Shown piece after piece: positions 4,958 to 56,369 of a stretch of DNA of 64,000 nucleotides. Position 1 is the stretch's first letter. Each line of letters begins with the position of its first letter. This DNA is from Pontimonas sp. (GTDB lineage Bacteria; Actinomycetota; Actinomycetes; Actinomycetales; Microbacteriaceae). The position numbers and the translations under genes are program-made. The stretch lies in NCBI GenBank assembly GCA_018402295.1, contig JAGYJI010000006.1, positions 1 to 64,000 on the forward strand, read 5' to 3'. The notes below the pieces were generated by a model. The model did no database searches. It was not told where the DNA came from and saw nothing but the letters and a program-made list of their open reading frames with translations.

Positions 4958-5068
4958 CTAGCGCTGGCCCTTATAGAGGTTCTTGAGGACGATGAACGAC
5001 ACCCATCCGATGGCAATCGATGCCAGGACCAACAGCCCAATAAAGAAGATTTCGATGGCGAGGAGCAT
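4958..5068 (-). CDS. 36-residue single-pass membrane microprotein
   Basis: A short gene beginning MLLAIEIFFIGLLVLA and ending in a basic tail NLYKGQR. About 25 consecutive hydrophobic residues form one transmembrane helix followed by positive charges, which suggests N-out/C-in topology. It starts 4 bp after the stop of the upstream membrane gene and ends 4 bp before the ygfZ start, so it fills the gap perfectly, which argues that it is translated. No ribosome-binding site is obvious, so translation is probably coupled. Function unknown; co-transcription with ygfZ might hint at a role near membrane respiratory or Fe-S proteins, but that is speculative. Confidence 0.65.
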   Translation of the reverse strand: MLLAIEIFFIGLLVLASIAIGWVSFIVLKNLYKGQR

Positions 5069-5072
5069 GCTC

Positions 5073-5381
5073 TTAGTCTACGACGCTCAACACCTGAAAG
5101 ACCACGGCAGCGCCTGCGGTTAACAGGACACTCCCGGTGAGAGCCAGGGAGAGCCGGCTCACCAACCCTTCCCGGTGGTACGCGACCACCTGAAGAATGA
5201 ACGCCATCAAGAGCGATGCTGCGAGCACTGCCACCATGCTGGCCACCCGAGAGTCCACGTCAACGACAAAGCCGACAACCACAACTCCCACGGCCGTCAC
5301 AATCCAGACCGGAATCACGTTGCTCATCACATGCGCCACCCCACAATCGTAGAGCGCCCTTAGACTGGTGGGGTAAGTCAT
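5073..5381 (-). CDS. Small integral membrane protein, unknown function
   Basis: Up to 102 residues with three or four hydrophobic segments (about 22-40, 48-66, 80-98). It could also start at the internal Met codon at 5327, giving 84 residues that begin at the first membrane segment. No family recognised. It is the first gene of a likely three-gene operon with the microprotein and ygfZ, and is divergent from the GlnR-type regulator. The two promoters must share only about 25-80 bp. Confidence 0.6.
5360..5365 (+). promoter_or_regulatory. Probable -10 element of the GlnR-type regulator gene
   Basis: TAGACT, about 33 nt before the strong GGAGGTGA ribosome-binding site (5391-5398) that fixes the start at 5405. 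The same element class precedes several genes in this window. Confidence 0.4.
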
Positions 5382-47008: not shown

Positions 47009-47080
47009 ACTACCGCACCCCAGTGTAGGTGGCGTTTCCTGGTTTAGCAAAGGCGCTACCCGCTGGTCAGCTGGGCTGTG

Positions 47081-47086
47081 TACCCT
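47081..47086 (+). promoter_or_regulatory. -10 element of aspC, leaderless
   Basis: TACCCT, then 6 nt, then GTG at 47093; this favours 47093 over the upstream GTG at 47078 as the start. Confidence 0.55.
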
Positions 47087-47092
47087 ACAAGT

Positions 47093-48303
47093 GTGAGCGA
47101 AGCATCCCGCGGTTTATCGAAGCGAATCACGTCCATAGCTGAGTCAGCCACCCTCAAAGTCGACGCCAAAGCCAAAGCACTCAAAGCAGAGGGCCGACCC
47201 GTCATCAGCTTTGCTGCCGGTGAACCCGACTTCCCCACACCCGCCCACGTCGTGGAGGCGGCTCTCGCGGCAGTGAAAGACCCCGCCAACCACCGCTACA
47301 CCCCCGCAGCCGGACTTCCTGCGCTGAGAGAAGCAATCGCCGAGAAGACACTGCGCGATAGCGGCTGGGCAGTCAAACCAAGCCAAGTTATCGTCACCAA
47401 CGGTGGCAAACAAGCCGTCTATCAAGCGTGTGCGACGCTTCTGGATCCAGGCGACGAAATGCTTCTGCCAGCCCCTACTGGACCACCTACCCCGAGGCCA
47501 TCACCCTTGCTGGTGGCACTCCGGTCGTGGTCTTTGCCGGAGCTGACCAGGACTACAAAGTCACGGTCGAGCAGCTGGAAGCCGCTCGCACACCGAAAAC
47601 CAAGGCACTGATGTTTGTCTCACCCTCCAACCCCACGGGCGCGGTGATGACACTGGAAGAGACCAGGGCAATCGGTGAGTGGGCAGCGGAGCATGGCATT
47701 TGGGTCATTGCCGATGAGATTTATCAGAACCTTGTGTATGAGGGCGGAGCTGATCACGCAGTCTCGATCGCTGAGGCGGTACCTGCCATTCAAGACCGCT
47801 GCATCCTGGTGAACGGGGTTGCCAAAACCTATGCCATGACCGGGTGGCGTCTCGGCTGGATGGTGGGACCACAAGACGCCATCACCGCTGCAGCAAACCT
47901 CCAATCCCACCTCTCCAGCAACGTCTCCAATATTTCCCAACTGGCCGGTCTTGCAGCCCTCACAGGAGACCAGGCTCCCGCCACAGCAATGCGGGACGCG
48001 TTCGACATCCGCCGGAAAGTCATTGTCGATGGCCTGAACGCCATCGACGGGGTCCTCTGCCCTGAACCCACCGGTGCTTTCTATGTCTACCCCGATGTGA
48101 CCGGTCTGCTGGGTCGCGAGTGGGCTGGGAAAACTCCGACCACCAGCCTCGAGCTTGCCGACATCATCTTGGAGGAGTGTGAGGTCGCAGCAGTCCCGGG
48201 CGAAGCCTTCGGTCCCAGTGGTTACCTGCGATTCAGCTATGCACTGGGTGACGCTGACCTGGCGGAGGGCATTGCCCGCCTGCAGAAGTTCTTTCAGGCC
48301 TAA
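47093..48303 (+). CDS. aspC: Aspartate/aromatic-type aminotransferase, class I (frame broken once)
   Basis: A PLP enzyme of about 403 residues that transfers the amino group between aspartate and 2-oxoglutarate. [17 protein letters not shown] and [20 protein letters not shown] are typical of the AAT-I subgroup; the PLP lysine is in [17 protein letters not shown]. One C is missing in the CCCC run 47472-47475; restoring it gives [13 protein letters not shown]. Its stop overlaps the convergent murB stop. The position next to tRNA-Trp/secE is common in actinobacteria. Confidence 0.9.
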
Positions 48304-49402
48304 AGCTCAAGGCCCACGAGTGTGGGCTCAGGGACGAGATAGATTCCTGTCTTGTTTCCCACCGTGGTGATGATGTACCGGGCAAGTTCTGCGATCTCGG
48401 AAGCACTTGCGCCTCCCCGATTCGTAATGGCCAAGGAATGCTTCCCAGAAATGGCCGCCTTGGAGCCCGGAAGGGCAAAACCTTTGTGAATCCCTGAGTG
48501 CTCAATCAGCCAGGCCGCACTCACCTTGACCATGCCGGGTTCAGCGAAGGCGGTGCTCGCCAGTTGGCGCAGTTCCCAGTGGGAACCACCACATCCTCTG
48601 GCTGTTCCCCCACGAACCACCGGGGTGCATCACTGGGGAGTGCCATCGAAATCTTCTCCGACACAATCGGGTTGACGAAAAATGACCCGGAACTTACGGA
48701 GTCCGGATCATTTTCATCCAGAAGCATTCCTTTAGACGAGCGGATGGCACGAACAGTCTCCCGCGTGCTCTCCAGAGAAGCGCGCTCCCCGGCGAAACGC
48801 CCAGAGCATCCGCCAACTGGTCGTAGAGAATCGGGATGCTCGTGCCATCATCAGCGGGTTCGAGTGAGAAGGTGACCCCCAACACAATCCCCTGAAGCTT
48901 GCCCGTCTTGAGAGAACTTGTCCGAAGACCCAACTCCAGCTCGTCGGCGGGAACAGTTCTCCGTGTCCCGGAAGGAAATTCGAGGAAATCGATGGAGACA
49001 AGGGTGTCGGAGATTTCCGCTCCATAGGCTCCAATGTTTTGAATCACCGAAGCCCCGATCGTGCCGGGAATTCCGCTCAGGGTCTCGAGCCCACGAACCC
49101 CTTGAGCGAGCGTGTGAGCAGACGAAGTCATCCCAGTCCTCACCGGCTTCCGCATGAATCTGAACGCGCTGACCCGTTGCTTTCTTGACGGTGACACCAC
49201 GGGTTTGGATGTGGAGAACGTGACCGTCAAACCCAGCATCACTCACGACCAGGTTGGATCCCGATCCGAGCGCCATCCACTCATCAGTCTCAGCCCAGAT
49301 CTTCTTGGCCCCAGCTATCAGGGACCTGGTTGAGGAGTAGGAGTGGTAGTGACCCATAGGTCCGCCCACTCGCATGGTGGTCAGGTCAGAAAAACTCGTC
49401 AC
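48300..49402 (-). CDS. murB: UDP-N-acetylenolpyruvoylglucosamine reductase MurB (several frame breaks)
   Basis: Peptidoglycan precursor enzyme, FAD-dependent. The first segment has [19 protein letters not shown] and [17 protein letters not shown] (FAD site); the next has [19 protein letters not shown] and [18 protein letters not shown]; the next [15 protein letters not shown] (catalytic Ser region); the last [19 protein letters not shown] and the C-terminal [12 protein letters not shown]. At least three frame changes (near 49120-49135, 48770-48790 and 48590-48620). Essential in peptidoglycan-making bacteria, so the breaks argue for sequence error. ATG overlaps the hadB stop. Confidence 0.9.
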
Positions 49403-50301: not shown

Positions 50302-51187
50302 CTAAAACAGCGTTATGCCGAGCAGTGAGTCAAACATGTCTCTCGCCTTGAGCTTGTCGGCTTTGGTCGCCGAGGAGCCAGCAGTTGAGGCCAAGCTCCG
50401 CACCGCTGACACCGCATGGTGGGCTTTCAGCATGATGAGGTCGTCCTCCGTCATCTCACGGTCATAACCGCTGAGGAAAGCCACCCGAAGCTGAGGGTCG
50501 GTCCTCCAGTAGTCCTGTTCGAGAAGGAACACGTCGACAATCCAGGGGTCGTATTCCGCCATGGCGAAGTCGATGAGACGAACGTGTCCGCCCGGGTCCA
50601 CCATCCAGTTTCGGGGGTGGTTATCTCGATGGGTGGGAACTAAAGGAAGGGAAGAAAGGTCCATCGCGCGGGCGATGAGGAGTCTCGCCTCTGAGAGCAA
50701 GGAGGAGGACACAAGTCCCTCGAGTCCCCCGGCGGCCTCCTCAAAGCGTGCAGCACACTGCCTCGCAAACTGATCCGACACCACAGGCTGTGATGACTCA
50801 TGCAGGCGCCTAATCAGTGCACCCGCCTTGAAGTGAACGAGGGGGTCCCACTCGTTCGCAGTCCCTGCGGCAGGCTCACCCTGAAGTTCGCTGATCAGGA
50901 GCATCTTCAGGCCCTCATCGTTGTCGATGAGCCGGGGAGCGTCTGACCCGAGGGCCGGTGTGTAGTGCGTGAGAGCGTCCCACTCTCGTTGATAGTCGGT
51001 TTGGTCTCGGTACCACTTGACGAAGGACGAATCACCCGAGCGGGTGACGACCTTCAGAACCTTACCTACCGAGGGTCTGCAGAGATTCATCGTCCGCAAC
51101 ATCAACCGGACCCAACACGCGATTGACTCTGTCCAGAACTTCTGCATCGGAGGCAAGCCCGGCACGACCGAGAACTGTGTCACGCAT
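50302..51187 (-). CDS. Aminoglycoside-phosphotransferase-like kinase (frame broken once)
   Basis: About 295 residues from ATG 51187 (AGGAGG 6 nt upstream). The first 40 residues (MRDTVLGRAGLASDAEVLDR) are in one frame and the rest in another; the slip is near 51060-51072. The kinase fold has the catalytic loop HRDNHPRN (HxDxxxxN) and the metal Asp in VRLIDFAMAEYD. Family members phosphorylate small molecules such as choline, homoserine, sugars or antibiotics; no substrate is indicated. It follows an intrinsic terminator and a 25-residue peptide gene, which may be functionally linked. Confidence 0.75.
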
Positions 51188-51214
51188 GGTGCCTCCTGGA
51201 ACATAGTGGCAATG

Positions 51215-51254
51215 AAAAACCCCCGCCCACACTCATTGTGGTCAGGGGCTTTTA
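51215..51254 (-). terminator. Intrinsic terminator between the peptide gene and the kinase gene
   Basis: On the minus strand AAAAGCCCC-TGA-CCACA, a short loop, TGTGG-GC-GGGGG and TTTTT: a strong GC stem with an A-run before and a T-run after. It lies 14 nt after the peptide stop and 28 nt before the kinase start, so it could end a short peptide mRNA or act as an attenuator. Confidence 0.8.
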
Positions 51255-51267
51255 CAAGCTCATCGGA

Positions 51268-51345
51268 CTACTGGCAGCTGTCACACTGGAGCAGATCCAT
51301 GGGATCTACGGGTACTGCGTAGCCTCCAACGTTGTCTTCGTTCAT
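51268..51345 (-). CDS. 25-residue peptide with a CDSC motif at its C-terminus
   Basis: The peptide begins MNEDNVGGYAVPVDP and ends DLLQCDSCQ. AAGGAGG sits 5 nt before the ATG, one of the best ribosome-binding sites in the window, so translation is very likely. It is acidic, not hydrophobic, and has two Cys spaced C-x-x-C next to its end. It has its own promoter with a palindromic operator, and its own terminator. Possibilities are a precursor of a modified peptide, a metal- or redox-sensing leader peptide controlling the kinase gene, or a small regulator. No known family is recognised with certainty. Confidence 0.65.
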   Translation of the reverse strand: MNEDNVGGYAVPVDPMDLLQCDSCQ

Positions 51346-51386
51346 GGTGGCCTCCTTACATTGTCGGCTCTTTTGACCGGACCACC

Positions 51387-51418
51387 ACTATATACCCCTA
51401 ATGACAGACCTGTCATTA
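51387..51418 (-). promoter_or_regulatory. Promoter with a perfect 20-bp palindrome upstream of the peptide gene
   Basis: On the minus strand TAATGACAG-GT-CTGTCATTA (51399-51418) is a perfect inverted repeat with a 2-nt spacer. Its ATGACA can act as a -35; 18 bp later comes TATAGT (51387-51392), a good -10. A repressor dimer bound to the palindrome would cover the -35 and spacer. The responsible regulator is not adjacent. Confidence 0.7.
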
Positions 51419-51560
51419 CCCCATATCTTGTGGTTTCGGCGTGTTGTAGTGACCTCACTTCGCTGGACAAGACCCCATGGCACCTGGAACCCTCGCGGGG
51501 CTTGAGAAGCGACGTGGCGCAGCCCAAGCGGTGGGTTTCTTCACAGGTCGGAGAACTGGC

Positions 51561-55323: not shown

Positions 55324-56369
55324 GCGCTCTCTCCACCCAGTGACGCTTGCTTGAGTTGATATCCGGCCTTGAGAGGCTCCCGTACCGTCTTTCCATAGAG
55401 CCCGGCAAGTTCCGTCGGCCCGAAATCTCCGCCACCTGGACGTTTGACCCAGAGATTATCCGGCCCCAATACGTCCCCAGCCTTCGAGGTCCTGAGTCAC
55501 CACGACTGACGCAAAGGCAAAAGCGATGGTGACGGCTTCTTCATCCGCCGGTCCCTTACCTCCTCCGGACGCTTCAAAAACCTCGCTCGACGCGATTCTC
55601 AGGTCCCGAGCCTCTTCTGGAGTCATCGAGCAGGGGATGTCAGGCCCTGGACGATCAGACCTATCGGTGAAGTGACGCTCAAGAATTCGCGCCCCCAATG
55701 CCACCGACGCAATACACGCACTGTTGCTCGTCGAGTGGTCAGACAGACCCAGAACGGCATCAGGAAAAGCCTCCGCCAAAGCGCGTCAGGCCACCCAGAC
55801 GAATCAGGTGATTCGGCGTGGGATAGAGGTTTGTGGTGTGGAGCAACGCAAAAGGGACTCCCGCGTCCCGAAGAATGTCGACCGAGGGAGCGACTGACTC
55901 GATGGTGTTCATGCCGGTGCTCAAAATAACCGGTTTACCCATTGAGGCGATGTGCTGAACGAGGGGGTAGTTGTTGCACTCGCCCGAGCCAATCTTGACC
56001 AATGGCACATCCCAGTGTGCCAAGCGATCAGCGGCTCTCGAGAGAAAGGGGTGCTGAAAAAATCCCACCTCTGTCGTTCACGTGGTCCATGAGGATGCGT
56101 TCATCAGCTTCCGACAGGGTGCAACGATCGATCACCTCATAAATGGACACATCAGCGTTCCCCGGCTTGATGGATTTCGCTTCCTCCGACATCTCAGCAT
56201 CCGGGATGTGGGTTTGATGCTTGATGAAGGTCAGTCCGGCGTCAAGGGCCGCATCCGCCATCTCGATCGCGACCGCGAGGCTGCCTTCGTGGTTGATTCC
56301 TATTTCTGCGACAACGATGGGCGGATGATCTGTTCCAATCGGAATGCCTCGAACGCTAAATTCCGGCAT
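55320..56369 (-). CDS. neuB: Nonulosonic acid synthase (NeuB/LegI type; frame broken three times)
   Basis: About 350 residues. Begins with PIVVAEIGINHEGSLAVAIE, the typical NeuB start; LTFIKHQTHIPDAEM holds the active-site Lys-x-Gln; PLVKIGSGECNNYPLVQHIA, VILSTGMNTIESVAPSVDIL, LGLSDHSTSNSACIASVALG and ARILERHFTDR follow; the C-terminal SAF (antifreeze-like) domain reads NLWVKRPGGGDFGPTELAGL. Frame changes are near 56045, 55780 and 55480. It condenses phosphoenolpyruvate with a 2-acetamido sugar to give a nine-carbon acid. Overlaps neuA and neuC. Confidence 0.9.

Follow-up and report, generated by a model that had tools for sequence, protein, structure and literature searches.

A 25-codon gene of Microbacteriaceae that very probably encodes a detached redox tail of class I ribonucleotide reductase

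What does a gene of only 25 codons do that has a promoter, a Shine-Dalgarno sequence, and a terminator to itself? Such a gene lies in the window, the stretch of 64,000 nucleotides from Pontimonas sp. that was analyzed here (contig JAGYJI010000006.1), where the minus strand carries a complete one-gene unit at positions 51433-51216: promoter, AAGGAGG, 25-codon open reading frame (ORF), and terminator. A sequence-only reading of this DNA had proposed that the product is either a secreted or modified peptide with a kinase as its partner or a leader peptide for the kinase gene that follows, under the control of a repressor encoded elsewhere.

Layout of the unit and its neighbors

The features of the unit and of the adjoining kinase are listed below with the evidence for each.

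51418..51433, minus strand: NrdR-like box 1 (ccacaagatatggggt), from box pairs at 33-bp spacing in homologous loci
51411..51416, minus strand: -35-like ATGACA, from the promoter pattern scan
51399..51418, minus strand: palindrome with 9-bp arms TAATGACAG/CTGTCATTA and a 2-nt center, between the two boxes; its left arm holds the -35
51385..51400, minus strand: NrdR-like box 2 (taggggtatatagtgg), overlapping the -10; weak left half, with G instead of C at box position 4
51387..51392, minus strand: -10 TATAGT, from the promoter pattern scan
51351..51357, minus strand: Shine-Dalgarno AAGGAGG, from the sequence
51268..51345, minus strand: gene of the 25-residue peptide, very probably the free C-terminal redox tail (CxxC) of class I ribonucleotide reductase (RNR), from the translation, the homologues, and a homologue fused to NrdA
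about 51216..51253, minus strand: intrinsic terminator hairpin closing the one-gene unit, from folding against shuffles
50302..51187, minus strand: APH-like kinase, frame-broken near 51062, a neighbor outside the unit, from Pfam APH; present in 9/78 homologous loci

The -35-like element, the -10, the Shine-Dalgarno sequence, the 25-codon ORF, and the terminator are all where the sequence-only reading had placed them. The “perfect 20-bp palindrome” TAATGACAGGTCTGTCATTA is not perfect; it consists of two 9-bp arms around a 2-nt center that is not palindromic. In the pattern scan, the -35/-10 pair scored 10/12 matches with a spacer of 18, and the promoter pattern alone is not beyond chance (2 sites vs 0.9 expected). 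The terminator at about 51253-51216 was absent from the pattern-scan listing; its hairpin folds at -25.9 kcal/mol (z -3.4), with 2 of 200 shuffles equally good. We compiled a set of 80 homologous loci from named genomes (the best 80 of 413), 78 of which have no nrdA or nrdB in the fetched flank and are denoted standalone; a terminator-like hairpin is found in 61 of these 78, a count made without shuffle control.

The kinase gene had been described as starting 28 nt after 51215. There is an ATG with an AGGAGG at 51187, but the frame opened there ends after 41 codons (read by hand), and the APH domain goes on in another frame (Pfam APH match of 6e-17 for the ORF 50302-51204). An indel is likely in the window kinase because the gene is intact in one frame in a congener locus (L037). 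The kinase (50302-51187), murB (48694-49402), an aminotransferase gene (47078-48303), and a neuB-like gene (55456-56369) each appear to be split over at least two frames, whereas the kinase, murB, and aminotransferase genes are each a single ORF in L037; thus, the window assembly probably carries indel errors.

Neighboring genes were searched with kinase, MaoC, MurB, aminotransferase, and Nrd protein queries. Among the 78 standalone loci (from the best 80 of 413), the kinase adjoins the peptide in 9, maoC lies downstream in 62 (within 300 bp in 44), and the order maoC-maoC-murB is present in 61. Because the kinase-bearing loci in this set are confined to the Pontimonas type plus three others, two of them from Microcella, we infer that the kinase joined the locus later; judged by gene order, it is not part of the unit.

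The peptide family and the C-terminus of NrdA

Peptides of this family end in VPxDPMDxLQC[DE]SCQ-stop. The 25-residue query matched 25 of 60 related genomes at E<=10, with the strongest matches near 3e-14 and the weakest compatible with chance; the peptide is beyond chance given its 96-100% identity in six congeners, with E down to 3e-14 per genome. Pairwise differences among 59 distinct 16-codon ends amount to 0.062, 0.028, and 0.334 at first, second, and third codon positions, respectively. Third positions vary far more than first and second ones, which argues that selection acts on the residues of the peptide, and the codon comparison identifies this as purifying selection. The conservation of the frame in relatives, which had been suggested as a check, thus speaks against refutation, and the earlier view of a very small, functional gene that has expression signals of its own agrees with residues conserved in congeners and selection at the amino acid level. 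A pattern for CxxC near the stop caught 177 rows, all of them with [DET]SCQ at the end; outside that pattern, CxxCQ is also kept, as CEGCQ (L060, L231), CEACQ (L236), or CESCQ (L062), and the CxxC pair lies at the extreme C-terminus of the peptide. No model from Pfam, NCBIfam, or PHROGs scored above cut-off for the peptide, one Pfam zinc-finger match being sub-threshold (E 0.28).

For RNR, the enzyme of DNA precursor synthesis, descriptions place the redox tail within the alpha chain. Microbacteriaceae encode the same peptide in a separate small gene between nrdA and nrdB, the genes for the large and small subunits of class I RNR (e.g., L014, L015, L022-L024, L031, and L034). The NrdA of this family is nearest to structure 5im3, the class Ia enzyme of Pseudomonas aeruginosa, and to other RNR large chains, and an NrdA sequence that was read contains the active-site stretches NLCTEI and SVCNLAS. 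The last 60 residues of NrdA include no cysteine in 44 of 44 rows (40 distinct), which cover NrdA from 38 of the 52 positive genomes described below and from two congeners; L048 (G027), where the NrdA reading frame extends beyond the peptide, out of frame with it, was set aside. The last part of the cysteine-free NrdA is a linker, for instance KKGFGFGGAPKAGE or RRGFGGL; the short ORF next to it is the peptide in all but three of the 44 rows. A C-terminal CVSCML of their own is present in six distant RNR large subunits from peptide-negative genomes, which served as controls and were taken for class Ib NrdE.

Beyond this family, the tail was found as part of NrdA itself. Outside Microbacteriaceae, a survey of 198 genomes of the order yielded 14 matches besides the Pontimonas sp. 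genome. In all 14, the matching stretch lies in frame at the C-terminus of NrdA, the alpha subunit; in L284, the fused tail comes after ARRGFGGL and a short linker, near the stop position of Microbacteriaceae NrdA. One further match, in a 909-residue open frame, was found among 396 genomes drawn from the phylum. Since the homologue of the peptide is the NrdA C-terminus in other families, the peptide is very probably the detached CxxC redox tail of RNR.

Co-occurrence was analyzed in 120 family genomes of 95% completeness or more, with the Pontimonas sp. source genome (60% complete) in the sample. The peptide profile matched 53 of the 120 genomes and a close NrdA (74% identity or more) matched 52; the two sets coincide (52/52) except for the Pontimonas sp. 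source genome, and the peptide is found in 0 of the 67 others, where NrdA matches reach only 26-32%. Neither nrdA nor nrdB was matched in the source assembly (60% complete), so that the NrdA partner of the window peptide is inferred from relatives. The genomes with both genes cluster by descent, with one within-genus contrast noticed (G102 has both, G157 neither).

The tail gene lies within 300 bp of the NrdA match in 49 of the 52 genomes, 48 of which have at least one further copy elsewhere; G015 has the adjacent copy only. Three genomes (G033, G089, and G149) encode a cysteine-free NrdA without an adjacent tail, and only unlinked tail genes were found in them; a search at E<=1e-20, with class III outside its scope, found no second RNR large subunit in these three. 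Thus, the free peptide should serve NrdA in trans, unless another reductant has replaced the tail.

Promoter boxes and phage copies

The promoter of the unit is covered by two boxes that we take to be of the NrdR type; the yardstick for scoring was the NrdR consensus, with the cut-off set after a first look at the box data. Two such boxes are exactly 33 bp apart, start to start (17-bp spacer), in 76 of the 78 standalone loci (from the best 80 of 413), many of which are close relatives, vs 3 of 780 mononucleotide shuffles; only L194 and L204 (Leifsonia aquatica) have no such pair. All 45 nrdA rows (41 distinct, the fused L047 and L048 included) have a comparable pair in front of the gene, at 32-33 bp (16-17-bp spacer), each scoring above the best of its 20 shuffles. 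Two boxes with a 15-17 bp spacer over the promoter, the arrangement expected of the NrdR regulon, are found at 76 of the 78 standalone loci, and the Pontimonas sp. genome encodes NrdR (TIGR00244 over cut-off, G000:C4); box 2 of the window departs from the consensus. The earlier expectation that the operator is served by a repressor encoded elsewhere fits these boxes, as scored by the NrdR consensus, together with the nrdR gene, and NrdR may well repress the tail gene.

Between the two boxes lies a conserved dyad, AATGACA-N4-TGTCATT (window 51399-51418), the left arm of which is the -35. The palindrome, searched as ATGACAN4TGT[CG]AT, occurs between the boxes in 60 of the 78 standalone loci (from the best 80 of 413) and in 0 of 80 viral loci (best 80 of 345), a count made without shuffle control. 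A full copy of the dyad was not seen among the nrdA box pairs, L226 carrying ATGACA-N3-TGTC, and no regulator was found for the inner dyad. Several nrdA promoters (e.g., L225-L228) read TGTC[AG]GTG-N8-TATAGT between the NrdR-like boxes, which resembles the RecA-independent DNA-damage (PafBC) promoter motif.

The peptide is also encoded by phages. A viral collection contained 345 matching stretches, the best 80 of which were fetched. Four annotated phages encode the peptide: Pontimonas phage phiPsal1, Clavibacter phages CN1A and CMP1, and Pseudanabaena phage Pan2, whose copy is a more distant match. The peptide gene has no annotated feature in three of the four phages inspected. Box pairs of the NrdR-like type were detected in 1 of 80 viral loci (best 80 of 345) vs 3 of 800 shuffles. 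The 4 annotated phages and 26 of the 80 viral contigs, for the most part longer contigs, were searched as whole records. Of these 30, 1 matched NrdA, 5 matched NrdB, and 25 matched neither; many viral records may be fragments, and two of the five NrdB records (L128 and L132) look like one virus. In L126, the peptide is encoded between the terminase and portal genes.

Some viral loci have features of their own. Contigs of 92-120 kb (G162, G169, and G175, with loci L075, L115, and L132) carry the tail and nrdB, with no nrdA match. In L107 (G167:C1:91398-94799), the viral nrdA matches come in two pieces with about 900 bp between them and a stop inside, adjoining the tail gene; an intein or intron is possible. 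The cyanobacterial phage Pan2 (L062, about 4993-5076) has a small annotated gene ending in CPNDPADLVSCESCQ, like the fused tails.

Competing explanations and known systems

With high confidence, we regard the peptide as the redox tail that belongs at the C-terminus of the class I RNR large subunit (NrdA), provided as a free microprotein that acts as a swinging arm in trans; so understood, the system is a split RNR with an unusually small second subunit. The support in hand comprises the homology to fused tails, the cysteine-less NrdA, the co-occurrence, the genomes with unlinked tails only, and the tandem boxes at both genes. Under the proposed mechanism, the NrdA of Microbacteriaceae, ending in its cysteine-free linker, would have its arm supplied by the separate peptide; the C-terminal CxxC pair of the free peptide would enter the NrdA active site and reduce the disulfide left by every turnover, after which the peptide would itself be re-reduced by a protein of the thioredoxin or glutaredoxin type. 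Binding to NrdA and electron transfer are predictions from sequence, and the window copy may be an extra or regulated tail supply. What weighs against a free tail is that a 25-mer would need a high concentration or a docking site.

Extra tail copies with their own operator could alternatively suggest that the free tail is a regulator or decoy, which competes for the NrdA active site or thioredoxin and damps RNR; tiny RNR inhibitors, such as yeast Sml1, exist. We consider this improbable because the inspected NrdA chains lack cysteines at the C-terminus, three genomes yielded unlinked tails only, and the peptide is homologous to a fused, presumably working tail. Translation of the nrd operon could also join the tail to NrdA, through a frameshift or read-through of the stop, with the standalone copy as a separate matter, and the nrdA stop indeed often overlaps the peptide start (TAATG/TGATG). 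There is very little chance of this: the peptide gene occurs in all three frames relative to nrdA (29, 4, and 3 of 36 distinct junctions, with the fused L047 left out), and the nrdA-linked peptide has its own start codon, on which grounds we reject a programmed frameshift that fuses the tail to NrdA; furthermore, three genomes have no adjacent copy, and the standalone genes have promoter boxes of their own.

The two functions suggested in the sequence-only reading depend on a kinase partnership, which we reject given the presence of the kinase in only 9 of the 78 standalone loci (from the best 80 of 413). A leader peptide whose translation sets read-through of the terminator into the kinase gene would be in line with peptide, terminator, and kinase in a row and with cysteine codons near the stop. 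Its probability is slighter still, given that no conserved gene lies directly downstream (in the same set, maoC is within 300 bp in 44 of 78), that the downstream gene changes, that selection acts on the residues, and that the same peptide is found in phages and in nrd contexts, between nrdA and nrdB or fused to NrdA. The other function, in which the gene product is modified and secreted and the kinase serves for modification or resistance, would be suited by the short peptide, its conserved cysteines, and the nearby kinase; we give it next to no credence, as the kinase, the one candidate modifying enzyme among the five protein types with which the neighborhood was searched, is not conserved, maoC-maoC-murB is the prevailing order in that set (61 of 78), and the peptide is homologous to the NrdA tail.

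The free-tail explanation can be carried further, to a proposal to which we give even chances: throughout one clade of Actinobacteria, class I RNR would have as its redox arm a diffusible subunit of ~25 residues, the dose of this arm from an nrdA-linked and a separate NrdR-controlled gene would tune dNTP synthesis, and phages would carry the arm without RNR genes to raise dNTP output of the host free of NrdR control. If so, the phage tail gene would be, to our knowledge, the smallest auxiliary metabolic gene. A tail in the form of a free peptide makes it possible to test if the arm must be tethered, by which route it reaches the active site, and if dNTP synthesis is limited by its dose. The free tail would also explain a large family of 25-codon genes, and NrdA in such genomes may look truncated when the tail is a separate gene.

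In the open-access literature, as far as the accessible text goes, we found no report of a detached class I RNR tail. The NrdR regulon (PMC9110341, PMC12051234) shares the arrangement of a pair of palindromic boxes over the promoter, separated by about three turns of the helix, with spacers of 15-16 bp as a rule and best binding of the S. coelicolor protein at 15-17 (PMC12051234); it is known for RNR operons, whereas here such boxes also stand at a single gene of 25 codons and enclose a further dyad. The C-terminal tail of class I NrdA/NrdE, as excerpts of PMC9669993 describe it, has the same CxxC at the extreme C-terminus and is homologous to the fused tails found here, but it normally lies within the alpha chain and is a separate gene product in the present case. 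Phage Aeh1 has a split nrdA, with a class I NrdA in two polypeptides that is reported to be functional (PMC2988022, PMC3653736); that split, known from a single phage, is ascribed to the insertion of a mobile element or an intein, and the accessible passages describe no free redox tail or unlinked copy. In its logic, the present system comes closest to NrdJa/NrdJb, the split class II RNR of Pseudomonas aeruginosa, which the authors of PMC4520616 call the only split RNR found in a non-viral organism. As in that enzyme, the catalytic chain has no C-terminal cysteine pair (44 of 44 NrdA rows are cysteine-free) and the second chain carries it. However, NrdJa/NrdJb is class II (B12), and NrdJb is a 229-residue subunit encoded in the same operon, whereas the present system is class I, with a second chain of ~25 residues in place of a large subunit. 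A genome usually has at least two copies of the peptide gene, there is an unlinked copy under boxes of the NrdR type, and phages carry the peptide too. Because its NrdA is nearest to 5im3, nrdB lies beside it, and the peptide has ~25 residues, the system is not a member of the NrdJa/NrdJb type and would only work like it.
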